A DNA stretch of 64,000 bases, from NCBI GenBank assembly GCA_001296005.1, contig LJHR01000022.1, positions 1 to 64,000 of the forward strand. The letters are read 5' to 3'. How positions within the stretch are numbered: the stretch's first letter is position 1; each line of letters begins with the position of its first letter. The notes beneath the pieces are model-generated. The model worked only from the letters and a program-made list of their open reading frames with translations, did not search any database and had not been told where the DNA came from. The position numbers and the translations under genes were made by a program. This DNA is from an alpha proteobacterium AAP38. Lineage in GTDB: Bacteria; Pseudomonadota; Alphaproteobacteria; Azospirillales; Azospirillaceae. Below, piece by piece: positions 5,869 through 18,901 of this stretch.

Positions 5869-6930
5869 TCAGCCCTTGCGATGTGCCGCCCCGACCGCGT
5901 CGGCAACATGGGCATAGCCGTCATCGGTCAGGCGTTGCGCCAGTTCCGCTTTGATCCGGCCCACCAGAGCCGGACCCTGATAGGCCATGGCGGAGTAGAA
6001 CTGCACCAAACTGGCACCGGCCCGGATCTTGGCATAGGCATCGGCACCAGACGACACACCCCCCACACCCACCAGCGGCAGTTTTCCGCCCAGCAACTGA
6101 TAGAACTCGCCCAGCACCTTGGTGGAGGGTTCCAGCAGGGGGCGGCCCGACAGGCCACCGGCCTCTGCCGCCAGGACGGGCGGGATAGCCGCCGGGCGGG
6201 CCAGTGTGGTGTTGGAGACGATCAGGCCATCAATACCACTGTCCAGAACGACGGCGGCGATGTCGGCCTTATCCTCGTCCGTCAGGTCGGGAGCGACCTT
6301 CAGCAGCAGGGGCGGCGTGGCCCCCGTCTCTGCGCGTGCCGCCAGACATTGACCCAGAAGATCGGCCAGCGCGTCGCGCGATTGTAGGGTGCGCAGGCCC
6401 GGCGTGTTGGGGGAAGAGACATTGACGACCAGATATTTGGCCAGATGCGCCACGCGGCGGATGCAGGCGATATAGTCGCTGGCCGCGTCCACCGTATCCT
6501 TGTTCTTGCCGACATTGGCGCCAACAATACCGGGCCGTCCTGCCCGCGCCGACAGTCGGGCGGCATAAACGTCCAGGCCCTGGTTATTGAAACCGAAGCG
6601 GTTGATCACGGCCTGGGCGGTGGGCACGCGGAACAGGCGCGGCTTGGGATTGCCATCCTGCGGGCGCGGGGTAACGGTGCCGCATTCGACAAAACCGAAG
6701 CCCAGCTTCAGCATGGCGTCCGGCACCTCGGCATTCTTGTCGAAGCCGGCGGCAAGACCGATGGGATTGGAAAAATCCAGGCCGAAGACGCGGGTGGCCA
6801 GCACATCCGGGTCACGCCGTGACCCGCCGGGGACCAGACCCGTTTTCAGGGCCGCGATGGTCAGGTTGTGGGCCTGTTCGGCATCCATCGCCATCAGGAA
6901 CGGGCGGGCCAGGGGATAGAGATCGACCAT
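5869..6930 (-). CDS. pyrD: Dihydroorotate dehydrogenase (quinone), class 2
   Basis: About 353 residues. Oxidises dihydroorotate to orotate in pyrimidine synthesis, passing electrons to quinone at the inner membrane. The N-terminal helices (YPLARPFLMAMDAEQAHNL) are the membrane-association domain of class 2 enzymes. The TIM barrel shows FNPIGLAAGFDKNAE-type FMN contacts (LDFSNPIGLAAGFDKNAE), NRFGFNNQG, VVNVSSPNTPGLR with the class 2 catalytic Ser, and VGVGGVSSG near the end. A GTG at 6933 and an ATG at 6930 are both possible starts; both overlap the stop of the upstream DUF952 gene, so the two genes form an operon. Confidence 0.95.
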   Translation of the reverse strand: MVDLYPLARPFLMAMDAEQAHNLTIAALKTGLVPGGSRRDPDVLATRVFGLDFSNPIGLAAGFDKNAEVPDAMLKLGFGFVECGTVTPRPQDGNPKPRLFRVPTAQAVINRFGFNNQGLDVYAARLSARAGRPGIVGANVGKNKDTVDAASDYIACIRRVAHLAKYLVVNVSSPNTPGLRTLQSRDALADLLGQCLAARAETGATPPLLLKVAPDLTDEDKADIAAVVLDSGIDGLIVSNTTLARPAAIPPVLAAEAGGLSGRPLLEPSTKVLGEFYQLLGGKLPLVGVGGVSSGADAYAKIRAGASLVQFYSAMAYQGPALVGRIKAELAQRLTDDGYAHVADAVGAAHRKG

Positions 6931-7289
6931 CACAGCCCCCCGCCGGCCACATGCGCCGGCATGACATGCAACCCATCATCGCCCAGCGGCAGCGGATCGA
7001 CGCGGATGACGGCACTGGGGAGCAGCGGGCCATAGAGATGGGGGAAAAGCTGCCCCCCGCGCGAGGCCTCCCACTTCAACGCCGCACCGCAGGCATCGGG
7101 ATCGACGGTCAGCAGCAGCAGGCCCGTCTGCCCCGTCCGGTGCTTGGCCGCACTTTCCGGCAATTGCGCGCCTGTGGAGAAATGGATGAAGCCATCGGCC
7201 TTGTCCTGGGACGATCCGTCATAACGGCCAAGGGCCTGGGCCGTCTGCCATTCATCGGCGCGGCACATATGGAAGATGGGGGATGCCAT
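6930..7289 (-). CDS. DUF952 family protein
   Basis: 119 residues. It carries the family hallmarks IFHMCRADEW near the N-terminus, DGFIHFSTGAQL around residue 35, and a C-terminal FPHLYGPL. DUF952 proteins are small single-domain cytosolic proteins; structural work links the fold to ADP-ribosyl-binding or transferase-like folds, but no reaction is established. Its stop overlaps the pyrD start, so it leads a two-gene unit. The gene begins about 250 bp from the divergent small gene at 7546. Confidence 0.8.
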   Translation of the reverse strand: MASPIFHMCRADEWQTAQALGRYDGSSQDKADGFIHFSTGAQLPESAAKHRTGQTGLLLLTVDPDACGAALKWEASRGGQLFPHLYGPLLPSAVIRVDPLPLGDDGLHVMPAHVAGGGL

Positions 7290-7545
7290 GGTTTTCGTTC
7301 AAAAGACAAAAGGATGGACGCCACCCTAATCTGAAAGCGGGGCGACTGCCAGCACGGCCATGATCCGTGCCAGGAATGCCATCGGCGCGAAAGACCGCGC
7401 GAAAGGTTATGTATTGGATGAATACCCCAAACTATACGTCTGAACAGTGGTGCCGGGCCGAAAGCTGCGCCAGTATTTGAACATCCACAGGGCGGGCCGA
7501 TGTTGCGACCAGCGGCCCACCCCACCAGGGTCAGGAGTAACCGCC

Positions 7546-7767
7546 ATGAAGGACGCGGCCCGCATGTTCCAGGACGTCAATGAAAGCATGCTCAGTGAGC
7601 GGATGCGTTTCGCTTTGAATGAAGTGGAACAAATGGGAATTCGCGGCCTGACCGCCGTACCCGTGAAGCCGACGCAGGAGATGCTGACGGCCGGTGCCCG
7701 TGCCGGGAATATCAGTATCGAGACGGTGATGGCTGTCTATACAGCCATGCTGCGCGCCGCTGACTGA
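7546..7767 (+). CDS. Small conserved hypothetical protein, 73 aa
   Basis: Starts at ATG 7546, preceded by AGGAG at 7533-7537 with good spacing; a longer reading from 7447 lacks such a site. The product is helical with no membrane segment or Cys. The C-terminal half (PVKPTQEMLTAGARAGNIS followed by a hydrophobic helix VMAVYTAML) looks like a small helical domain that I have seen in uncharacterised bacterial and phage proteins, but I cannot name it. It lies just outside the phage block, on the opposite strand, and is followed by a strong terminator. Confidence 0.6.
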   Translation: MKDAARMFQDVNESMLSERMRFALNEVEQMGIRGLTAVPVKPTQEMLTAGARAGNISIETVMAVYTAMLRAAD

Positions 7768-7836: not shown

Positions 7837-7878
7837 ATGCCGTCCCTTCTTCTCCGTGAAGGGACGGCATTTCTTTTT
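7837..7878. terminator. Rho-independent terminator
   Basis: A perfect 13-bp stem (7837-7849 with 7858-7870) and an 8-nt loop are followed on the plus strand by TTCTTTTT. It ends the 73-aa gene and also marks the left edge of the phage block. The pyrimidine-rich stretch 7775-7815 before it contains no gene. Confidence 0.85.
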
Positions 7879-8312
7879 CAGGCGCGGTAAAAGCTGAACC
7901 CCGCGAGGCTTGCCGTCGGCGTCAGGGATGATGCCCAGTCGGGCAGCGGCTGGGCATCATCCAGGAAATGATCGGCCCCGCCGACAAGGCCATCCGCCCC
8001 GGCCATGGCCCGGCGCGCCACGCGCAAGGCGGCGGCAAAGGCCGGATCAGTGCTGTCCACGGCTTGCATCTCTGCATGGCGCGGATCATTGGGGTCCCAG
8101 GCCGCGAACAGGGCCGGATCACGCACGAGATCGGCCAATGTCCGGCCCGGCGACCGGTAACGGCGGTTGATGGCTGTGGCGGCCAGCGCCTCCATGGCAC
8201 GAATGCCCCGATCACGGCCATGAGCCCAGATGGCACGGGCCAGCGCATCCAGCGCGGCATCGGGACCGGCGGGTGTGGGCTCGGTTACCGGGGTCAGTGA
8301 CGGTCGTGTCAT
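7878..8312 (-). CDS. SleB-like cell wall hydrolase family protein lacking the catalytic Glu
   Basis: About 144 residues from ATG 8312 (an adjacent ATG at 8315 is also possible; AGGAG spacing favours 8312). The fold markers of the SleB/hydrolase_2 family are present: a helix ending AATAINRRY, FAAWDPNDPRHAEMQ (family: FSCWN-NDP), GGADHFLD, PDWA and C-terminal FSFYRA. The family motif WGEARGE reads WAHGRDR, so the catalytic Glu is replaced by His. It is the last gene of the phage block, where lysis genes normally sit. It could be a structural or inactive relative, or use another acid residue. Confidence 0.6.
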   Translation of the reverse strand: MTRPSLTPVTEPTPAGPDAALDALARAIWAHGRDRGIRAMEALAATAINRRYRSPGRTLADLVRDPALFAAWDPNDPRHAEMQAVDSTDPAFAAALRVARRAMAGADGLVGGADHFLDDAQPLPDWASSLTPTASLAGFSFYRA

Positions 8313-8332
8313 CATCCTCTCCTGTTCTGCAT

Positions 8333-9820
8333 CTACAGATCGAAATCGGTCTGGGCCTGGATCGGCCCGGTCTGGCGGGTATGGTCGGGGCGTTGGCGGG
8401 CGCACGCGGCGATGGCGCCGGCCAGGGCATCCAGACCATCATCATGGGACCGCCCGCGCGGTCGCCATTCCCGCATCTCCCGACCCAGAGGGCCGGCAAT
8501 GACGCTGTCATGGGCGTAAAGCAGGTTGGCGTGCAGCGGGCCGTCGATGCTGCCCAGGATGCGGTCAAGTTTGGCCCGCACCGACCGTTCCTCCCGCACC
8601 GTGACCTTACCCAACTCCCGTTCGCGCAGGGTCCGGCGCAGGGCTTCGGGCAGGAAGGCACCGACGCCGTTGACCTCCAGATGGATCAGGCCGACACCTG
8701 TTTCAGCCACCAGGGCTGCCAGTTCGCGGCATTGCGCGGCGCCTGCCTCTTCCTCCGACCCCGACGGCACAGTCAGGTACAGGGCGCGGTGGATGAAGAA
8801 CCTTCCCTCCCCATCCTCCCCCAGCAGGACAGCGACGGACCCGTCCCCTGCCTTGCGCCGCTTCTTGTCGCGCAGGCCCAGGGCCGGGTCCCACCAGACG
8901 CGCAAGGACCGCAGCCGGTGGGGACCCAGAACAAAGCCGGGCCTTGCCAACATCGGCGGTTCCAGGCCCCAGCCATAGGGGATCAGCCGGTCGGCATCCA
9001 ACCGCCCATCCTCCAGCGAAACGGGCTTCAGCAGCATCTGGCTGGCGAATTTATTGACACTGCTGCGCCGGCGGATGCGCTCAATCGCTTCTGGCGGGAA
9101 CCGGTCTGGCCAGGCGCTGTCACCATCCCCGGTGAAGATCGGCTTTTCTAGCCGGTCGAACCCATCGAGAAAGGGCACCTCCTCCCCCTCCTCCACACAG
9201 GGGCGACGGCTATAGATCGACTGAAACGAATGCGGTGTGCCGATATAGAGCTGGGTTCCGCCCGGTGACAGGACATAGGCGATCTCTCCCAGCCTTTGCC
9301 GCAACTCCAGCCGCTTTTCCGCGGTACCGCAGGTGTTGGGCACTTCCACATCGTCACAGACCACGATGTCGGCATGGCTGCCCGTGACATTGGCGGTGAT
9401 GCCCTTGGCCACCATGGAGGGGTCGCGGCCCACCTTGTCGCGGGAGATGGCGAATTCTTCGGCCCCCCAAAGTTCGGGTTTCGCGGGCTTCATGCCCTGG
9501 CACAGCGGGTGGCGTTCCACGATGCGCTTGACCGTGCGCACCATCTTCTTGGCCAGATGCGTATCGGCGGCCAGCACCATGACGCGGCGATTGGCATCCA
9601 GATACAAAAGCCAGGCGCAGAACAGCCCGATCAACGTGGATTTGCCGCTGTCACGGAAGGCCAGCAACAGCAACTCCCGCGATCCCGCCCGCCAGCGGCT
9701 TTCCAGCCAGCCGGCCATATCGGCGTGCAGGGCCGGGGTGGTCATGCCCTGCTCAAGGTTCCAGCGATCCAGAAAGCCGATAAAGTCGTCCTTCTTCTCC
9801 TCCCCGGCGGTGCCCATCAC
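8333..9820 (-). CDS. Phage terminase large subunit
   Basis: 495 residues. The N-terminal ATPase has a Walker A-like FRDSGKST (about residues 55-62) and a Walker B IVVCDD (about 152-157). The C-terminal nuclease domain has acidic positions in VWWDPALGL, LIHLEVNG and DDGLDALAGAI. Overall it resembles the T7 gp19 type of DNA-packaging motor. The start overlaps the tailspike stop by 4 bases. The partner small terminase and the portal it would dock on are not in the window. No frameshift or key-residue loss is evident. Confidence 0.85.
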   Translation of the reverse strand: MMGTAGEEKKDDFIGFLDRWNLEQGMTTPALHADMAGWLESRWRAGSRELLLLAFRDSGKSTLIGLFCAWLLYLDANRRVMVLAADTHLAKKMVRTVKRIVERHPLCQGMKPAKPELWGAEEFAISRDKVGRDPSMVAKGITANVTGSHADIVVCDDVEVPNTCGTAEKRLELRQRLGEIAYVLSPGGTQLYIGTPHSFQSIYSRRPCVEEGEEVPFLDGFDRLEKPIFTGDGDSAWPDRFPPEAIERIRRRSSVNKFASQMLLKPVSLEDGRLDADRLIPYGWGLEPPMLARPGFVLGPHRLRSLRVWWDPALGLRDKKRRKAGDGSVAVLLGEDGEGRFFIHRALYLTVPSGSEEEAGAAQCRELAALVAETGVGLIHLEVNGVGAFLPEALRRTLRERELGKVTVREERSVRAKLDRILGSIDGPLHANLLYAHDSVIAGPLGREMREWRPRGRSHDDGLDALAGAIAACARQRPDHTRQTGPIQAQTDFDL

Positions 9821-12183
9821 GTTCGCCCGAGAATGTGCCAGGCGGCACCGTTGGACAGCAGGGTCATGCCGTCATACTGCGCCGTCAGGGTCTTGGGCCC
9901 ACCATCGGGGCCGCCGCTGCCGTCACCGCTGGTGACATTCACGATGTTGGTGGACGGATCGGTCTTCTTCACGGTCAGGCGCGTGCCACTATTGGCAGCC
10001 GCTGGGGCCGGCAGGCGCAGCTCCACCACGCCGGCATAGGCGGAGACAAGATAATGTTCGGCGCCCAGGTCGGGCTGGAACAGGCCCGCCGCCTCATGGA
10101 AATGCACCGTTGCCGGCATGCGGCTGGCCGATGTCACCCACCAGGCGGCACCGTTGGAGAAAACCGTCACCTGTTCGAACTGCCGCGCCAGTTTCCACAC
10201 CCGGCCATCGGGGCCGGTGCCGGTGGCCGCCGTGACGCTGACCATGGCGTCGGATGTGTCGGATTTCTTGATAGTAATGCGCCGGCCCACGGCCTGCGTG
10301 GCCGATGGGTTGGGCAGGCGCACCTCAACCGGGCCATCGCCGCCACTGATCAGGTACAGGTCCTTCATCAGGTCGGGTTCGAACAGGCCGGCAGTATCGC
10401 GGAATTCGGCATTGCCCGGCTGTCCGGTGCGCGCCGTTACCCACCATCCCGCCCCGTTGGACACGACGCTGACATGGTCGTAACGACTGCACAGCAAGAC
10501 AGGCCGCCCGTCCGGCCCCGGCCCGCCCAGTTCGGTGACGGTAACCGGGTTGGCGGAACTGTCGGTCTTCTTGATGGTCAGGATGCGGCCATTGGCCGTG
10601 TCGGCCTTGGGCAGGCGGAATTCCACAGCCCCGCCAAAGGCCGAGACCAGATGCGTGATGGAGGAAAGGTCGGCATTGACCAGCCCGCCGCTGACCGGCT
10701 CGACATAATTCGTGTCAACGCTGAACCCCTCCACCCGCAGGTCGGTGACATGGGTTTCCTTCAACAGGTTGCGCAGCGGGTAGCCGGCATTGATCGCCGT
10801 ATAGGCGCGGGATGAGGAGGTGTCCCAGATCGGCTGCCCGCCGGTCGCGCTGAACAGGTTGACGATGCTGGTGTTCTGGCTGCCATTGTCGATGCGGATG
10901 CCGGGCAGGGCGCCCAGGCTTTCGGCGTAGAAATTCACGATCAGGTTTTGATCCGTGGCCGCGCCCAGCCGGAGACAGGCCTGTCCACCCGGATGCAGAT
11001 TGGCCTCGCAATCGGTGAAGCTGTTGTTGAAGCGCCCGGCGGAAATGAAGAAGCCGCAGCCGCTGATGGGGGCGGACAGGGAATAGACGCGCACATCCTG
11101 GAACTTGTTAGCATTGGGCGTGTCGCCGTCGCCTTCGACCGTCAACAACACGCCCTGGGCCTGGGGCCGCGCGATCAGGATGCGGGCCACATGGTTCCAG
11201 TAACAGGGCCGGTTGGTGTCGTGATAGCCGTCCAGGACGATGCCGTTGATGCTGTCCCAGATGGACAGATTCTCCACAACATTCTTCACGCACGGCCCAT
11301 CACGCCCGAACAGCTTGACGCCTGTGGCACCACCCACGATGCGCAGGTCGCGCAGGCTGGCGTAGCCGTCCACTATCTCGACCGCATTAAACATACTGGG
11401 ATATGTGGGCAGGTTGACGGGGTCGTAGGCGGCGGCGCGGGCCTGGATGACACTGCCCTCCCCCTCGCCATACAGGGTCTGGCCATGGGACAGGACGATG
11501 GGCGCGCTGGTGCGGTAGGTGCCGGCGGGCAGGAAGACGGAACGGTGGGCGGCGAGCGCGGCCAGGATGGCGCCGGTATCATCCGTCACCCCATCGCCAA
11601 CGGCCCCGAAATCCCGCACCGTCACGACATCGCGCAGCTTGTCCGCCACGGCACGGGTAACGGCCCCGGGCCCGTGGGCGGCAACGGTGGCTGCGGTAGG
11701 CAGGCTTTCCAGGGCCAGGGCCATGGGATTGCCCGACGCATCAAAGCCCAGCGCAGCCCCTGCCCGCACGGCCCGGTCGGGCAGCAGGGAAGAGGCGGGC
11801 AGGTCGGTGGGGGCGGTGCGCAGCATGCGGGCCTGATCGGCGGCCAGTTGCTGCACCATGGATGTCAGGCGGTTCAGCTGTTCATTCAGGCTACGGGCCG
11901 CCAGCGGCCCGCTTTCCAGGAAATCCGCCTGCCGGTCCAGCACGACACGGCGCTCAATGGTGACCAGGGTGCCGGCGGGCGGTGCCGCATCCATCTGCAC
12001 CGCCCCACCCGCCGGATCCCCCAGCCCTTCCAGCGTGTAACCGCTGGTCCAGGGGGCGGCGTCCAGATAGAGCGACAGGTCGGAGGGGGCGTAGATCGGG
12101 AAGGTGAAGGCAAAACGGCTGGCCACCCCGTCGGCGACAAATTGCGCGACAGGGCTGGCCGCCGGGATCGGGGCGGTGGGCAT
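9817..12183 (-). CDS. Phage tailspike/tail fibre with pectate-lyase-like helix and three C-terminal repeats
   Basis: 788 residues from ATG 12183 (AAGAGG upstream). The N-terminal 120 residues resemble the T7 gp17 tail-attachment domain (FVADGVASRFAFTFPIY, VTIERRVVLDRQADF). After a helical stretch comes a right-handed beta-helix start of the pectate-lyase superfamily (VTVRDFGAVGDGVTDDT, later VFLPAGTYRTS). The last 290 residues or so are three related units of about 95 residues sharing LRLP, TIKKTD/S, GPDG and SNGAAWW motifs. Such proteins bind or cleave host surface polysaccharide. It is encoded between the internal protein and the terminase, as in T7. Confidence 0.82.
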   Translation of the reverse strand: MPTAPIPAASPVAQFVADGVASRFAFTFPIYAPSDLSLYLDAAPWTSGYTLEGLGDPAGGAVQMDAAPPAGTLVTIERRVVLDRQADFLESGPLAARSLNEQLNRLTSMVQQLAADQARMLRTAPTDLPASSLLPDRAVRAGAALGFDASGNPMALALESLPTAATVAAHGPGAVTRAVADKLRDVVTVRDFGAVGDGVTDDTGAILAALAAHRSVFLPAGTYRTSAPIVLSHGQTLYGEGEGSVIQARAAAYDPVNLPTYPSMFNAVEIVDGYASLRDLRIVGGATGVKLFGRDGPCVKNVVENLSIWDSINGIVLDGYHDTNRPCYWNHVARILIARPQAQGVLLTVEGDGDTPNANKFQDVRVYSLSAPISGCGFFISAGRFNNSFTDCEANLHPGGQACLRLGAATDQNLIVNFYAESLGALPGIRIDNGSQNTSIVNLFSATGGQPIWDTSSSRAYTAINAGYPLRNLLKETHVTDLRVEGFSVDTNYVEPVSGGLVNADLSSITHLVSAFGGAVEFRLPKADTANGRILTIKKTDSSANPVTVTELGGPGPDGRPVLLCSRYDHVSVVSNGAGWWVTARTGQPGNAEFRDTAGLFEPDLMKDLYLISGGDGPVEVRLPNPSATQAVGRRITIKKSDTSDAMVSVTAATGTGPDGRVWKLARQFEQVTVFSNGAAWWVTSASRMPATVHFHEAAGLFQPDLGAEHYLVSAYAGVVELRLPAPAAANSGTRLTVKKTDPSTNIVNVTSGDGSGGPDGGPKTLTAQYDGMTLLSNGAAWHILGRT
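9820..10700 (-). repeat. Three tandem coding repeats in the tailspike gene
   Basis: The 3' third of the tailspike gene encodes three homologous blocks. Their conserved core runs LVSAFGGAVEFRLP (first), LISGGDGPVEVRLP (second) and LVSAYAGVVELRLP (third). Each then has a TIKK/TVKK strand, a GPDG turn and a SNGA-W strand. The first two are followed by FRDTAGLFEPD and FHEAAGLFQPD linkers. The units have diverged at DNA level, so the duplication is not recent. Confidence 0.7.
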
Positions 12184-12218
12184 GGGGGCCTCTTGATCTC
12201 GGGGTGTCGTTGTGGGGC

Positions 12219-12298
12219 GTCGCATGCGCTACGCTTATGCGACCTACGACGGGTCGTGGGCTTCGTAGGTCGCATAAGAGCGAATGCCCGCATGCGAC
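12219..12298. repeat. Head-to-head pair of REP-like palindromic units
   Basis: Two copies of a unit starting TCGTAGGTCGCATAAG and ending CGCATGCGAC face each other: one on the minus strand (12249-12219), one on the plus strand (12263-12298). Together they form a perfect 16-bp stem (12234-12249 with 12263-12278) and an outer 10-bp stem (12219-12228 with 12289-12298). Each unit alone can also fold (GTCGCAT with ATGCGAC). It resembles REP/BIME elements of other proteobacteria and sits in the only sizeable gap between the internal-protein and tailspike genes. Confidence 0.75.
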
Positions 12299-12312
12299 AT
12301 CCGTCCGGCTGG

Positions 12313-12870
12313 TCACAAACCCCGCGCCAGACGTTCCAGACGCTGGCGTTCCTGCTGGCGCGTCAGGTCCAGGAGATTGCGGCGTTTGAGCGCCGTCTCC
12401 TCCTCCGACAGGCCCGCCAGTTTGAGGGCGTCCAGGCGGGCAGCATCGTCGCGCGCCTCGGCGGCGGCGCGTTCCCGGCCCAGAATGACCGCCTCGCCCG
12501 ATCCATCGGCACTGCTGATGCCCTGCGCACCCAGGGATGCCCTCAGGCTGCCGGTTTCCTGACGGAGGTCGCGGCGGCGGCGGCGTTCGTCGATCTCGCT
12601 TTGGGCCTGGATGCGCGCTGCCGTGCGGGCGTTGCGTTGTTGCAGATCGTCCAGATCCGCCGCTTGCCGGGCCGCCAGATCGGCATTGTCGGCAGCCTCT
12701 TCGGCCTCCAGAACGCGGCGTTCGCTTTTCCGGCGCCGGGATTTGGTGATGCCCAGCAGGTCCTTGGCCGTGTTGGTGGTGCCGACCAGCCTGTCCGCCG
12801 AACTGATCAGACTGTTGCCGACACCGGAATGGCCCAGAACCATCAGGGCCGGGGTGGTGATGCCGCCCAT
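12313..12870 (-). CDS. Short phage internal/virion-associated coiled-coil protein
   Basis: 185 residues. A small-residue N-terminus (VLGHSGVGNSLISSADRL) is followed by a long charged helix, rich in Arg, Glu and Ala, from about residue 45 to the end, predicted as coiled coil. It lies between tail tubular protein B and the tailspike, the position of T7 gp13-gp16 internal virion proteins, and its size is near that of gp14. Its start overlaps the preceding stop by one base (TAATG). I recognise no family; a role in the virion is inferred from position only. Confidence 0.55.
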   Translation of the reverse strand: MGGITTPALMVLGHSGVGNSLISSADRLVGTTNTAKDLLGITKSRRRKSERRVLEAEEAADNADLAARQAADLDDLQQRNARTAARIQAQSEIDERRRRRDLRQETGSLRASLGAQGISSADGSGEAVILGRERAAAEARDDAARLDALKLAGLSEEETALKRRNLLDLTRQQERQRLERLARGL

Positions 12871-14765
12871 TATTCGTTCACCTTCAGCTCATGGGTTACG
12901 GACAGGAGGGTGAAGGGCAGCGGCCTTTCCTCTACGATGCGCCAGGGGGGGCCGGCGCGGCTGGTCTGCCAGCCGGTGGCCGTCAGGCGCCGGTCGCCGG
13001 TGAAGCCGGGGGCCGGTTCCATGGCCAGCGCGGGGCCGGCGGTGCGCCGTAACGGCACCTCCACCGGCCCCCGCCCCAGGTCGGCGCGCAGCGCGGGCGT
13101 ATCCTTCAACCGGAAGGTCACCGCCAGCAGGCGCGCACGCCGTCCCTGTCCTTCCGCCGCCAGCAAGTTGGGCGGCATGGGTTCAATCTCATGGGTAAAG
13201 GCCAGTCCTGCCTGCACCCGTGTCGCCGGGCGGGGCAGGCGGATACGGCCCGCCGCGACGGGGTCCACGGCCATGACGGCGCCATCGGCCAGCAGTGCCA
13301 CCTCCCGGCCATCCAGATGATCCAGCCCGGCCCAACGGGCGGTGGGGCTGTCCACCGACCCGGAAAGGCCGGCATCGACATGCATTGCGTCGTCCCAGAC
13401 CTCCACAGCCACACGGCCATCGCGGTCCACCAGCCAGTAGAGATGGCGGCCCACCAGGGCCGTGGACAGGATGCGGCCGGCCGTGACCAGCCGCACCCAG
13501 GCGCGGATCTGTTCATTGCGGTAGAGGGTCAGCACCGCCAGGGTCCCGTCCGCCTGCACCGCCAGCAGCAGCCGGCGGCGGCGGTCATATTCCATATCGA
13601 CGGTGCCGGGCAGGATGGGCCGCGTGGTCAGGGTCAGGTCGGCGGCGGAATAGGATTGTTCCAGATCGGTCCACAGGAAATCGCGGATTGACCCGTCGCC
13701 TGCCGCGAACAGGGTCCCGCCCTCAATCTCCTGCGGCGGGATAGCGCGGTCGGACGGGCTGCCGATACGGGTTTGCCGGTCCAGGCGGATGGCGGCGGGT
13801 GTCAGGGGTACGCCCGTCACGGCCCATTCCCCGCCCGTGGTGAAGACCTGCAGATGCCGCCCGGAATAAACGGCGCGGATGGGGTTCACCTCATCCGACA
13901 GGATGGCGAATTCGATGGCGCTGTCATCCTCCCCCTCGCCCAGATCGAAATTGAACAGGTCGCCGGATTTTGACAGCCAGAGGCGGTTGGGCAGGTCGCG
14001 CGACCCGCCAATGACCAGCCGGTCCTGATGGAATGCCACGCAAAGCGGCCAGCCACGCTGCGGGCTGAACGCCGCCTCGTCCCAATCGGCAGTGGGGTTG
14101 GTGTGGGGCAGGCTGTCGGCCAGGTCGATCTCCGCCTCAATCGCTGACCGCACCGCCGCGATGCGCCCCGGCTTGCGGTGGATGCGCCAGGGCGCCCCCT
14201 CATGCGCCGGCATGAAGACGGGGGCGGAGGCGCGCAGCCGCACCCTTCCCGTCAGACCCGACGGGGTCAACGTGATGGCGGCATCGGCAAAGCGGAAGAA
14301 GGGGATGCGGGGCCGCCCCTCCTCGTCGGCAAACACCCAGGGCTCGACCGTCCAGTGGCCGGGACCGCGCCGGCTGATGCGGCGCGGCTCCACATCGGGA
14401 TGGCAGACCAGCAGCACATCCCCGCTCTGTGCCCAGGTCAGGTTGGCAAGCTGTGCCAGGGTCCAGGGGGCGGGCAAGGTCGCCTGCAGGGCATCATCGC
14501 CGAACACCGACACCTGACGGTCGGTCAAGACCAGCAGGTGCGTCTGCTCACTGCTGAAGGTAAAGGGGATCAGGCGGCCCGGCCCCGACACGGTGGCGAT
14601 GAAGCCCGTGCCGGGCCGGCGCGTGATGCCGCCCGTCGGTTCGATCAGAACGTTGGTCAGGGTCAGCGCCCCGTTTTCAAAGGCGGCAAGATCGCCCCTT
14701 CCCAGCAAGTCGGGGCTGACGCAGCCGCCGGTGAAGCTGGTCTTCACAGCTTTCAGGCGGGTCAT
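12870..14765 (-). CDS. Tail tubular protein B / nozzle-like phage protein (T7 gp12-like)
   Basis: 631 residues, beta-rich. The N-terminus (SFTGGCVSPDLLGRGDLAAF then GGITRRPGTGFIA) is the signature of podovirus nozzle proteins that build the distal tail. Further markers are LLVLTDRQVSVF, WAQSGDVLLVCHPD and RLVIGGSRDLPNRLWLSKSG followed by FNFDLGEGEDDSAIEF. It is coupled by a 4-base overlap to tail tubular protein A upstream. Length is shorter than T7 gp12 (about 790) but in the range of prophage relatives. Confidence 0.8.
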   Translation of the reverse strand: MTRLKAVKTSFTGGCVSPDLLGRGDLAAFENGALTLTNVLIEPTGGITRRPGTGFIATVSGPGRLIPFTFSSEQTHLLVLTDRQVSVFGDDALQATLPAPWTLAQLANLTWAQSGDVLLVCHPDVEPRRISRRGPGHWTVEPWVFADEEGRPRIPFFRFADAAITLTPSGLTGRVRLRASAPVFMPAHEGAPWRIHRKPGRIAAVRSAIEAEIDLADSLPHTNPTADWDEAAFSPQRGWPLCVAFHQDRLVIGGSRDLPNRLWLSKSGDLFNFDLGEGEDDSAIEFAILSDEVNPIRAVYSGRHLQVFTTGGEWAVTGVPLTPAAIRLDRQTRIGSPSDRAIPPQEIEGGTLFAAGDGSIRDFLWTDLEQSYSAADLTLTTRPILPGTVDMEYDRRRRLLLAVQADGTLAVLTLYRNEQIRAWVRLVTAGRILSTALVGRHLYWLVDRDGRVAVEVWDDAMHVDAGLSGSVDSPTARWAGLDHLDGREVALLADGAVMAVDPVAAGRIRLPRPATRVQAGLAFTHEIEPMPPNLLAAEGQGRRARLLAVTFRLKDTPALRADLGRGPVEVPLRRTAGPALAMEPAPGFTGDRRLTATGWQTSRAGPPWRIVEERPLPFTLLSVTHELKVNE

Positions 14766-15334
14766 GACAGGCGGGCCTCAATCAGGGTGAAATCGGTGAA
14801 CCCGTCCTGGCTGTCCTGCGAGGCATCGGTCAGGCGGGCGCGGCGGAACTCGGCCTCGGCCTGCTTCTGGAGAACCTCTGCCCGCGACGTATTCTCCGTC
14901 AGCGGCACACAGAATTCCGCCGCCAGCCGGGCAATCAGGGCCGCATCGAAGAAGGCGGGGAAGCCACCTTCCGCGACACGCGCCACATAGGTCAGGGTGA
15001 CCGCATCGGCATCGGTCAGCAGGTCCTTGCCCTGGATACGGTAGGGAAGACCCCGCCCCCGCCCACCGCTGCCCAGCGACAAGGCCCGCAGGAAATCATC
15101 CGGCAGGGCGAAACCATGGGCAAAATCGGCGGGCGGCGGATCGGCCCGCCGGACCAGCGGCACCTGCCGTGTGGCAAAGCTCCAGCCATGGGCGGCCAGC
15201 AGGGCATCGCGGGTGGGGGCATACAGGGCAGCGGCCAGTTCCGCTTCGGCGGTGCCGTCCTGAAACGACGTGATCGGGTTCGCCCCGATCTTCAACAATG
15301 CACGGGCGCACAGCCCGACAGCGGAATAGGCCAT
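14762..15334 (-). CDS. Tail tubular protein A (T7 gp11-like)
   Basis: 190 residues from ATG 15334 with GGAG five bases upstream. It is a helical adaptor (gatekeeper) protein that in podoviruses sits between portal and nozzle. Family marks: ALLKIGANPITSF near the N-terminus, then YAPTRDALLAAHGWSFATR and FALPDDFLRAL. T7 gp11 is 196 residues, so the gene looks full length. Its natural docking partner, the portal ring, is not encoded in the block. Confidence 0.8.
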   Translation of the reverse strand: MAYSAVGLCARALLKIGANPITSFQDGTAEAELAAALYAPTRDALLAAHGWSFATRQVPLVRRADPPPADFAHGFALPDDFLRALSLGSGGRGRGLPYRIQGKDLLTDADAVTLTYVARVAEGGFPAFFDAALIARLAAEFCVPLTENTSRAEVLQKQAEAEFRRARLTDASQDSQDGFTDFTLIEARLS

Positions 15335-15375
15335 GGGGGACTCCATTGGGTTGCCTGCTTTCCCGCCCCTCTCCC

Positions 15376-15401
15376 GTCATCCCGGTGCAAGCCTGGATGA
15401 C
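15376..15401. repeat. Single GTCATCCCGG-type palindromic unit
   Basis: GTCATCC (15376-15382) pairs with GGATGAC (15395-15401) around a CGG..CCT inner arm. It resembles one arm of the 127-bp element at 39394-39520. It lies between tail tubular A and the small gene at 15427 and may act as a weak transcription attenuator. Confidence 0.55.
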
Positions 15402-15426
15402 GAAGAAGAGAGCGAGCGGCGACGGA

Positions 15427-15696
15427 TCAATCGGTATCCGCCGCGCCCACCTGGGTCAGGTCGGCGGTGTCGATCACGCCGCCGCTATTGGCATTGACCA
15501 GCAGGATGCCGGCGACAGGCGTGGTGCCCACACCGGTATTGGCCAGGACCATGTCGCCCAGGCGCATCATGTGGCTGGCAGGGTTGAAGTAACCGGCGAC
15601 ACGCACCGCCGTGTGAGCATCCGGCGTGGCGTAATGCCAAAGCGTGAAGCCATTGGCATAGGCAAGGACCGACAGGTCGCGGGGCTGAAAGGCCAT
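15427..15696 (-). CDS. Small phage protein after the capsid gene, 89 aa
   Basis: Starts at ATG 15696 with AAGGAG upstream, 5 bases after the capsid stop; longer readings would run inside the capsid gene. It has a mixed beta composition (FTLWHYATPD, MMRLGDMVLANT, GILLVNANSGGVI) with no Cys or membrane segment. Position directly after the capsid gene suggests a decoration or head-completion protein (inference only). Confidence 0.6.
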   Translation of the reverse strand: MAFQPRDLSVLAYANGFTLWHYATPDAHTAVRVAGYFNPASHMMRLGDMVLANTGVGTTPVAGILLVNANSGGVIDTADLTQVGAADTD

Positions 15697-15701
15697 GGCG
15701 A

Positions 15702-16520
15702 TTACTCCTTGCAGCGCAGGGTGACGACGCCGGTGGCGTCGATCAGGGCGGCCCCCTGCGACATCATGTTGTTGACGAAATGGGCGGCGCGGTCGCCGTG
15801 CCAGGTGATGTCGCTGGTCACATCGGCCCCGCTGGCATGGCCCACGGCAGTCTTGTGGTACCAGTGGCAGAGGCGGACATTGCCGGACCCCAGCGTCAGG
15901 CCCGAATGCGGCATCCACAGCGTGCCCAGCCAGCGCTTGGCCTGGGTCCCGCGCCAGGGCAGCTCGCCATCGCCGACATAGTCGGAATTGGCAAACTCCT
16001 CGATCCCCAGCAACTGGCTCCACTGTTTCCAGCCGACCACGGCGTAACGCTGCCCATCATCGGGCACGTCGGCACCGCCCAGCATTTCAAACGCCGCCAG
16101 GACCTTGTCCTTGGTCAGGCCGTCCGTATCGCCGCCGGCATAGCGGGCACCGGTATCCAGCCGACCGATGATCAGCTCGTCCGTCTTGCGGCCCAGCGCA
16201 TAGGCGCCGGCATTGGCGATGACGCTGCGTTCGTCGATATTGGTCTTCAGCTCATCCAGCTTGTCGACCCAGTCGCCGGCATAATAATCGGCCAGGCTGC
16301 ATTCGACGGTGCCATGGTCCAGGTTCATGACCGGGACATTGCCATGGCGCGACTTGGTGCTGGCCACGCCCTTGCCAACCTTCTGAAAGACCGTGCTGGC
16401 GCCCTTCACATTGTTCTTGGAGCGCACAGTGGCGCGCAGCTTCGAACCTAAGCGCTGATAAGCCTCATGCACCTCGCGTTCATACTGCTTCACGAACGAT
16501 TTCTCGATGTCGGTGGACAT
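15702..16520 (-). CDS. Phage major capsid protein
   Basis: 272 residues. The N-terminus (VKQYEREVHEAYQRLGSKLR, then VKGASTVFQKVGKG) is typical of coat proteins in podovirus-type prophages. The middle (ADYYAGDWVDKLD, IANAGAYALGRKTDELI) and C-terminus (HFVNNMMSQGAALID) fit an HK97-fold coat. It is the first gene of the minus-strand block and the shortest plausible size for this class (T7 gp10A is 345). No separate scaffold or prohead protease is encoded nearby. Confidence 0.8.
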   Translation of the reverse strand: MSTDIEKSFVKQYEREVHEAYQRLGSKLRATVRSKNNVKGASTVFQKVGKGVASTKSRHGNVPVMNLDHGTVECSLADYYAGDWVDKLDELKTNIDERSVIANAGAYALGRKTDELIIGRLDTGARYAGGDTDGLTKDKVLAAFEMLGGADVPDDGQRYAVVGWKQWSQLLGIEEFANSDYVGDGELPWRGTQAKRWLGTLWMPHSGLTLGSGNVRLCHWYHKTAVGHASGADVTSDITWHGDRAAHFVNNMMSQGAALIDATGVVTLRCKE

Positions 16521-16755: not shown

Positions 16756-16785
16756 GTTATAGGATTAAAATCCACAACTCGTCAA
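16756..16785 (-). promoter_or_regulatory. Sigma-70-type promoter for the capsid operon
   Basis: On the minus strand, TTGACG (16785-16780) is followed after 18 bases by TATAAC (16761-16756). It lies in the most AT-rich stretch of the surroundings and points at the capsid gene. A host-type promoter here would free the block from any phage RNA polymerase. Confidence 0.55.
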
Positions 16786-16848: not shown

Positions 16849-18240
16849 TCAGGCTGGAAAGCGCAGTTCAACCTTCAGGCCTGGTGTGGTCACATCATTG
16901 CGCGCATCGGACAGGGCCAGGGCGGCATCATGCAGGCGGGCGACGGCAGCAACCAGGGACAGACCCAGCCCGTGGCCCGGCGTGCCGCGATGCGCCTCCA
17001 GCCGGACAAATCGCTCCAGCACCTTCTCGCGCTGATCGGCGGGAATGCCCGGCCCCTGATCGGCCACCGACAGGAGGGGACGCCCGGCATCGGTACCGGC
17101 CATCACCCGGATGTGGCCCTGTTCGGGGCTGTATTTCACGGCGTTCTCGATCAGGTTGCTGATCAACTGCGCCAGCAATTGCCGGCTACCGCTGACCATC
17201 ACCGGCAGGGGCGCCTCCACATCCATGGACAGGCCCCGTTCCTCGGCCAGCGGGGTGTAAAGCTCCGCCACCTCCGCCGCCAGGGCTGCCAGATCGACCG
17301 GTTCAAAATCAGTCCGCGCCCGGCCCGTTTCCGCCGCCGCGATGGTCAGGATGGCGTTGAACACGCCCAGCAGCCGGTCGATCTCGGCAATCGCCTGTTC
17401 CAGGGTGGTGAACTGCGCGTCAGACAGGGTTTCATCGCGTTGCGCGAGTTCCAGCCGGGCGCGCAGACGCGACAGCGGCGTGCGCAGATCATGGGCGACA
17501 TTGTCGGTGACCTGCCGCATGCCCAGCATCAGGCGCCCGATCTCATCCAGCATGCGGTTCAGCTTGGTCACCAGCCGGTCGATTTCATCCCCCGATCCCG
17601 TCACCTGCATACGGTCGGCAAAGGAGCCGGCGGTGATGCGGTCGATGGTGCGGTTGATGCTCTCGATACGTTCGGCCACGCGCCGGCTCATATAGATGGC
17701 GCCCGCCATGCCCACCGCGAAGGCCAGCGACACTGCCCAGATCAGGCCCGTCAACAACTGCCCGCGCAGCAGATAGCGGTCGGTCATGTCATGCCCGACC
17801 AGCAGCCAGCCGATCCCCTCGATCGGCAGGATGACGGCCACGGCTTGGCGCTTGCGGCCCGGATCCTTGCGCGATTTGATGTCGAATTCCACCCAGCCGG
17901 AACCAGGGTCCCCCGACGGCCAGCTGGCCAGATTGCCGGCGATGATATCGCGGGCGGGCGTGGTCAGGGCATAGATCATGTCCGTGCGCCCGTCCGAGGC
18001 GCGTTCCGAAATGACCCGCAGCAGGCCGATGCGCCCACGTTCATTCAGGACATTGCTCAGTTCCTCCACCTCCCGCAGCACGGTTTCTTCCGTGTGGCGG
18101 TTGATGAAGCCGGCGGTGAACCAATAGACAACGCCCAGCACCACCATCACCGACAAGGTGAACAGGCCCAGATGGAAGGCCGCCAGCCGGAAGCTGGTGG
18201 TGCGCAGGAAATTAAGGTTAAACCGGCTCACGGATGACAT
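16849..18240 (-). CDS. HAMP sensor histidine kinase of an OmpR-type two-component system
   Basis: 463 residues. Membrane helices (about 20-43 and 162-183) flank a periplasmic sensor of about 115 residues; a HAMP linker follows (185-235). The dimerisation helix has the phosphoacceptor H250 in NVAHDLRTPLS. The ATPase domain has SNLIENAVKYSP (N box), VADQGPGIP (G1) and GHGLGLSLVAAVA (G2). It overlaps the response regulator gene upstream by 23 bases. Stimulus unknown; the divergent degP-like gene suggests envelope stress, by analogy with Cpx-type systems. Confidence 0.9.
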   Translation of the reverse strand: MSSVSRFNLNFLRTTSFRLAAFHLGLFTLSVMVVLGVVYWFTAGFINRHTEETVLREVEELSNVLNERGRIGLLRVISERASDGRTDMIYALTTPARDIIAGNLASWPSGDPGSGWVEFDIKSRKDPGRKRQAVAVILPIEGIGWLLVGHDMTDRYLLRGQLLTGLIWAVSLAFAVGMAGAIYMSRRVAERIESINRTIDRITAGSFADRMQVTGSGDEIDRLVTKLNRMLDEIGRLMLGMRQVTDNVAHDLRTPLSRLRARLELAQRDETLSDAQFTTLEQAIAEIDRLLGVFNAILTIAAAETGRARTDFEPVDLAALAAEVAELYTPLAEERGLSMDVEAPLPVMVSGSRQLLAQLISNLIENAVKYSPEQGHIRVMAGTDAGRPLLSVADQGPGIPADQREKVLERFVRLEAHRGTPGHGLGLSLVAAVARLHDAALALSDARNDVTTPGLKVELRFPA

Positions 18241-18901
18241 AGCCCGCCCCGCGTACCGTATGGATCAGGGCCACCGGATGATCCTTGTCGATCTTCTGGC
18301 GCAGGCGGGCGATATGCACGTCGATGACATTGGTCTGCGGATCGAAATGATAGTCCCAGACATTTTCCAGCAGCATGGTGCGGGTCACGACATTGCCGGC
18401 ATTGCGGATGAGATATTCCAGCAACTGGAACTCACGCGGCAGCAGATCGACCGGCTTTCCGGCCCGCTTCACGGTGCGGGCCAGCAGGTCCATCTCCAGA
18501 TCGGCGATCTGCAACCGGGTCACAGGTGCCGATCCGCCGCCCTTGGCCCGGCGCTGCATCACCTCCAGCCTGGCCAGCAGTTCGGCAAAGGCAAAGGGCT
18601 TGGTCAGGTAATCATCGGCCCCGGCGCGCAGGCCCTTCACCCGGTCATCGACGCTTCCCAGTGCCGACAGCACCAGGGCCGGCGTGTCATTGCCGGTGGC
18701 GCGCAGCACCTCCAGCAGCGACAACCCGTCCCGGCCCGGCAGCATCCGGTCTACGATCAAGCCATCATAAGGTTCGGATGCCGCCAGAAACAGCCCGTCG
18801 CGGCCATTATCGGCATGATCGACCACATGGCCGGCCTCTTTCAGGCCCTTGACCAGGTAATCAGCGGTGGCGCGGTCGTCTTCGATGACAAGGATCTTCA
18901 T
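18218..18901 (-). CDS. OmpR/PhoB-family response regulator
   Basis: 227 residues. Receiver domain 1-115 with the acidic pocket (IEDD), phosphoacceptor D51 (LIVDRMLPGRDGL), and conserved K101 (YLTKPF). Winged-helix DNA-binding domain about 130-225 (LLPREFQLLEYLIRNAG, RTMLLENVWDYHFDPQTN, VDVHIARLRQKID, TVRGAGYVI). It is first in the operon, co-translated with the kinase, and divergent from the degP-like gene. The palindromes at 19279-19368 are candidate binding sites. Confidence 0.92.
   Translation of the reverse strand: MKILVIEDDRATADYLVKGLKEAGHVVDHADNGRDGLFLAASEPYDGLIVDRMLPGRDGLSLLEVLRATGNDTPALVLSALGSVDDRVKGLRAGADDYLTKPFAFAELLARLEVMQRRAKGGGSAPVTRLQIADLEMDLLARTVKRAGKPVDLLPREFQLLEYLIRNAGNVVTRTMLLENVWDYHFDPQTNVIDVHIARLRQKIDKDHPVALIHTVRGAGYVIREPV

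Follow-up and report, generated by a model that had tools for sequence, protein, structure and literature searches.

The window, a stretch of 64,000 nucleotides from the alphaproteobacterium AAP38, carries on its minus strand, at positions 7878-16520, a block of eight phage-type genes, and a check of the open reading frames confirmed that all eight are present and that each frame is open (Table 1). This agrees with an earlier sequence-only reading, which had described eight minus-strand genes in the late order of phage T7, several of them overlapping start to stop; the overlaps are indeed real, and the gp12-type gene overlaps both of its neighbours in this way. The coat protein is 78-99% identical across the family and the tailspike 50-95%; the 185-aa internal protein evolves faster, and searches with domain and PHROG profiles assigned it to no confident family. 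Inspection of the large terminase (TerL) by eye recovered a Walker A motif (RDSGKST), a Walker B motif (IVVCDD) and candidate acidic residues of the nuclease. The hydrolase frame probably begins later than its GTG at 8405, and an ATG near 8315 suits the relatives better. In gene content, the block and its flanks hold no portal, scaffold, integrase or replication gene. The genes on the upstream side of the coat (histidine kinase, response regulator and degP) are host genes, and the pyrD, DUF952 and orf7447 flank (5869..7767) also stands beside the block in G049, a genome of another family. Among the matches listed, the closest named relatives of the source genome belong to Niveispirillum (Azospirillaceae). 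The coat is present in 29 of 59 nearby genomes and nearly all of the 29 keep the block in the same order, which excludes a chance arrangement.

Table 1. Features of the phage-type block and its host flank in the window
Feature	Position	Strand	Assignment
pyrD, host flank marking the orthologous site	5869-6933	-	adjoins block in most family members
DUF952, host flank	6930-7289	-	adjoins block in most family members
orf7447, host flank	7447-7767	+	adjoins block in most family members
Cell-wall hydrolase, lysis candidate	7878..8405	-	PF07486 1.7e-4; PHROG 938 endolysin 1.8e-7
T7-type large terminase (TerL), 495 aa	8333..9820	-	NF033889 4.8e-114, above cut-off; PHROG 38 1.8e-70
Tailspike, 802 aa, pectate-lyase-like repeat	9817..12225	-	PF12708 2.8e-14; tail PHROGs
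Short internal protein, 185 aa	12313..12870	-	syntenic in family
gp12-type tail protein, 631 aa	12870..14765	-	PHROG 376 7e-123
gp11-type tail tubular protein, 194 aa	14762..15346	-	PHROG 394 2.2e-45
Small protein, 88 aa, immediately 3' of coat	15427..15696	-	PHROG 18004 1.7e-17; syntenic
Coat (major capsid protein), 272 aa	15702..16520	-	PF19821 4.2e-86; PHROG 3437
Putative coat-operon promoter, TTGACG-N18-TATAAC	16756..16785	-	kept in six closest genomes (coat-upstream alignment)

The block had been called portal-less, and a search for a portal elsewhere in the genome had been proposed. A clue was provided by genes of about 490 and about 215 aa which lie upstream of the coat in some relatives, and a profile of the ~490-aa gene found exactly one copy in the source genome, at G000:C53:9894-11333 on the minus strand. 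Portal and scaffold are thus missing from the block but not from the genome, which carries an intact T7-type portal and an intact scaffold on another contig. The portal, 500 aa in locus L092, is a Head-tail_con protein (PF12236, 5e-140). It is adjoined by a Bbp19-like protein of 90 aa (p90; PF25181, 1.7e-12), a scaffold protein of the T7 capsid-assembly family (PF05396, 4.5e-11), the small genes p130 and p235, and a divergent S24 repressor of the CI/LexA-like kind (PF00717, 2e-25), in which the Ala-Gly site and the Ser/Lys pair of the LexA/CI self-cleaving type are kept by eye. Coat, portal and T7-type TerL each occur in a single copy in the genome, as do the other genes of the second locus. 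Nowhere was a small terminase recognised, and NCBIfam profiles gave no match for the coat, the gp11/gp12 pair or p130. The same reading had noted that large internal proteins, replication genes and integration genes are missing, and we likewise saw none of them, nor a phage RNA polymerase, at either locus or in the flanks; integrase and replication genes are also absent from the undivided forms of 12-14 kb which occur in relatives.

Two assignments at the second locus were tried and not adopted. A conserved His and Cys had raised the suspicion that p235 is a permuted NlpC/P60-like cysteine protease; a fold search returned no significant match, which leaves the protease a guess. No support was found for p130 as the small terminase. 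Its model came nearest to the Q antiterminator of phage 21 (Q21), with Z of 7.7-6.2 at ranks 1-7 and 4.4 at the next rank, and gave nothing significant by Foldseek alone; the resemblance lies in a range that chance can produce for helical folds and is possibly a lead. It was also observed that in L092 (12543-18693) the S24 gene adjoins an error-prone DNA repair cassette with dnaE2 and an imuB-like gene, and G018 likewise has dnaE2 close by.

In relatives where the cluster is undivided, a divergent S24 is followed by p130, p235, portal, p90, scaffold, coat, small protein, gp11, gp12, internal protein, spike, TerL and hydrolase, and then by DUF952 and pyrD. Niveispirillum has the portal module apart from the coat, with the break between scaffold and coat; the distance between portal and coat is 153 kb in a well-assembled relative (G006) and about 4 kb, with other genes in between, in G008. 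Among genomes of the class with tabulated coordinates, portal and coat lie within 15 kb of each other in 35, are separated by 70 kb to 1.6 Mb of the same contig in six, and are on different contigs in eight, some of these perhaps through assembly breaks. With the loci 153 kb apart in G006 and distant from each other in other genomes, the system is unlikely to transfer itself as one unit. The coat side starts at the coat gene, without scaffold, at every split locus inspected other than that of G049, where the coat is cut. Combined together, these gene orders indicate that the block is one of two halves of a single ancestral cluster which was split between scaffold and coat. In the closest genomes the coat operon is immediately preceded by a histidine kinase/response regulator pair (16849-18901 in the window), which in G001 adjoins the portal module; the pair may mark where host genes entered between the halves.

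We examined how the cluster has been inherited and whether it is under selection. By a simple counting method, over comparisons which span dS up to about 1, dN/dS was about 0.04-0.2 for the core genes, TerL included (coat 0.04-0.07, gp11-type about 0.1, gp12-type 0.07-0.15, TerL 0.10-0.17); the hydrolase (0.19-0.49) and p235 (up to about 0.5) were above the core genes. The structural and packaging genes are thus under purifying selection and do not evolve neutrally, and the dS of block genes is comparable to that of the flanking host genes. Orthologous copies of the block occur across the family, beyond any single strain, and in many genera they stand beside pyrD. A tree of concatenated coat, gp11, gp12 and portal from 21 genomes recovered the well-supported clades of the rpoB tree; its deeper branches are weaker, and the two trees differ at depth in where they put the group of G034, G021, G030 and G027. 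Because the pyrD site is shared, dS is host-like and the tree agrees with the rpoB clades, we conclude that the cluster is inherited vertically at an orthologous site and was not reacquired; it evolves slowly and has a very long history of descent in the AAP38 lineage and in hundreds of related species. Of the two explanations offered earlier for the intact frames, a recent deletion is rejected, the missing half having been separated and kept, and dN/dS being low. The other, retention with a portal supplied from elsewhere, is borne out by the single-copy portal and scaffold on the other contig, the orthology of the block and the purifying selection; the host use itself is what we infer.

At least 567 loci were confirmed in a scan of named genomes, and the best 80 of these come from Azospirillum, Niveispirillum, Skermanella, Elioraea, Rhodovibrio, Telmatospirillum, Caenispirillum, Roseospira, Magnetovibrio, Odyssella-like MAGs and further taxa. 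Among 385 evenly sampled Alphaproteobacteria, 61 genomes had the coat, always at a single place per genome, and 59 of the 61 also had a portal match; two of the 61 coats (G219 and G226) score far lower than the rest and probably belong to phages. The GC content of the locus ranges from 31 to 71%, and genomes of 0.9-1.2 Mb are included. Three of the latter (L300, L301 and L318, locus GC 31-41%), probably of intracellular bacteria, keep the cluster, with the gene order altered in two. Ten of the 24 other genomes of the family are without the coat, and therefore the system is dispensable. An unannotated 5 kb contig from human faeces, filed as a phage (L031, MT838907.1), carries portal-p90-scaffold-coat-small-gp11-gp12 of the T7-like system and probably stems from a gut alphaproteobacterium.

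Some copies are interrupted. In two genera (L107/L108 of G007 and L109/L110 of G021) elements of 11-18 kb interrupt the portal gene near codons 299-309, another such element lies inside the coat gene of G026 (L056), and the coat of G049 (L060/L061) is also cut. The elements of G007 and G026 begin with tyrosine integrases, and there the gene halves overlap by 7-9 codons, like products of site-specific integration; the particle genes seem to act as attachment sites for integrating elements.

With respect to regulation, most family members have an S24 operator-like motif, TCCTAGGGAC, in the gap between S24 and p130, the gene that comes first after the repressor; the motif occurs once in the source genome. 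Its place fits a self-regulated switch. It was not found at the coat locus, and an operator common to both loci was rejected, as the motif occurs only in the S24/p130 gap; a joint regulation of the two halves is thus conjectural.

We argue, with a probability of about two in three, that the block is the coat, tail, packaging-motor and lysis half of a domesticated T7-like (podoviral) GTA-like element, unrelated to RcGTA, whose other half lies at the second locus, and that the system probably packages and passes on pieces of the host's own DNA. The gene data that point to a GTA are intact head, tail and packaging genes of phage origin, vertical descent at an orthologous position, purifying selection, and a cluster with no integration or replication genes. 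From the genes we infer particle production, random packaging of DNA and its transfer. S24 would repress the p130-portal operon until DNA damage or another stress relieves the repression, and p130, possibly a Q-like late regulator, together with host control of the putative coat-operon promoter would then turn both operons on. A short-tailed head would be assembled from the scaffold and portal of one locus and the coat of the other, and the T7-type terminase would fill it with host DNA; the wall hydrolase would aid release of the particles and the conserved tailspike would deliver the DNA to kin. Since the packaging motor is retained, a tail-only weapon is argued against, and TerL is under constraint, therefore DNA packaging is likely still the point.

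The capsid system may instead be kept for another host use with no productive gene transfer, its heads, DNA-filled or empty, killing competitors in the manner of PBSX, absorbing phages, or blocking related phages with faulty parts. Purifying selection and conservation would suit any host use, and the authors of the FpGTA study leave the same option for their element (PMC12946183). However, the full set of head, motor, tail and lysis genes is kept under constraint with the terminase included, interference with phages would not need all of the parts, and the spike is conserved within the family, not diversified; we regard this explanation as unlikely, though deserving of some weight. A prophage or satellite that is still mobile and maintained by repeated infection is very improbable. 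Homologous phages do exist, such as Pelagibacter phage Hodr (coat 48%, portal 38%), and many copies of the cluster are catalogued as viral contigs, but the orthologous position at pyrD across genera, the agreement with the rpoB tree, the host-like dS, the lack of integrase and replication genes, the single copy and the two separate loci all speak against mobility, and an active prophage was rejected on the orthologous position and the missing genes. That the block is a decaying remnant, open only through recent loss, is slightly less credible still: the element is missing from several genomes and a few of its copies are interrupted, but dN/dS is far below 1 in all core genes at dS up to about 1, the coat is intact in hundreds of loci and the second locus is intact as well.

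Beyond the window, we give even odds to a wider proposal for the domesticated T7-like element, namely that it represents a second GTA lineage, unrelated to RcGTA, ancient and widespread in Alphaproteobacteria, which would fill the role of RcGTA in orders without it and would have been divided repeatedly at the scaffold-coat boundary, leaving no single fragment able to spread the system. Surveys of alphaproteobacterial GTAs seek homologues of RcGTA, and the T7-like cluster is common in lineages reported to be free of RcGTA. If DNA is transferred, an unrecognised route of gene exchange would exist in many soil, water, plant-associated and probably intracellular bacteria, and the GTAs of Alphaproteobacteria would have T7-like phages in addition to siphoviruses as their sources. 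The repeated split is also a natural test of how domestication becomes locked in. In the literature searched, which excluded preprints and most subscription papers, we found no earlier description of the system, and papers on a Sphagnum virome and on hot springs do not describe it.

Among phages, Enterobacteria phage T7 has the same types of portal, scaffold, gp11/gp12 and terminase, whereas the cluster has a CI-like repressor and a coat of family PF19821. For coat and portal, the nearest annotated phages are Pelagibacter phage EXVC031P Hodr and phages related to HTVC010P. Hodr shares the order portal-scaffold-coat-gp11-gp12 with the cluster, but it is a complete phage of 34 kb with many extra genes, and homology is limited to the virion core.

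Among GTAs, the RcGTA family (Rhodobacter capsulatus GTA, CcGTA) is likewise a domesticated head-tail cluster of a tailed phage kept by alphaproteobacterial hosts. It differs in phage ancestry, being a siphovirus-type cluster, while the AAP38 system has portal, terminase and coat of the T7 type. A search for the RcGTA tail marker TIGR02217 found none in the source genome. The marker was present in 51 of the 385 Alphaproteobacteria and in none of the 61 coat-bearing genomes, where 8.1 would be expected (hypergeometric 8e-5, which ignores shared ancestry); the exclusion may reflect clade history alone, and in one family (f29) and one genus (g109) different genomes bear either the coat or the marker. 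A published survey reports no RcGTA-like clusters in Azospirillales, Rhodospirillales and Acetobacterales (PMC6821227). In the same bacterial family as the source genome, small GTA-like 10-kb particles that contain roughly 10 kb of host DNA are on record for Azospirillum lipoferum and strain B510 (cited in PMC3899980), and that paper ties them to a different, RcGTA-like region. Among the matches listed, the T7-like cluster is present in A. lipoferum Sp59b and A. doebereinerae, so the particle genes there deserve re-examination.

The nearest reported analogue, as judged from its published description, is FpGTA of Faecalibacterium prausnitzii, which is also a podovirus-like, GTA-like element with two separated operons and no replication genes. 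It is present in all Faecalibacterium genomes examined in that study, where particles and packaged DNA of 8-9 kb were demonstrated (PMC12946183). The host of FpGTA is Gram-positive, whereas the AAP38 system is found in many alphaproteobacterial families with vertical descent and is known from its genes. The partition is different as well: FpGTA has portal and coat together in operon I and the genes for baseplate, fibre and lysis in operon II, while the AAP38 system breaks between scaffold and coat.
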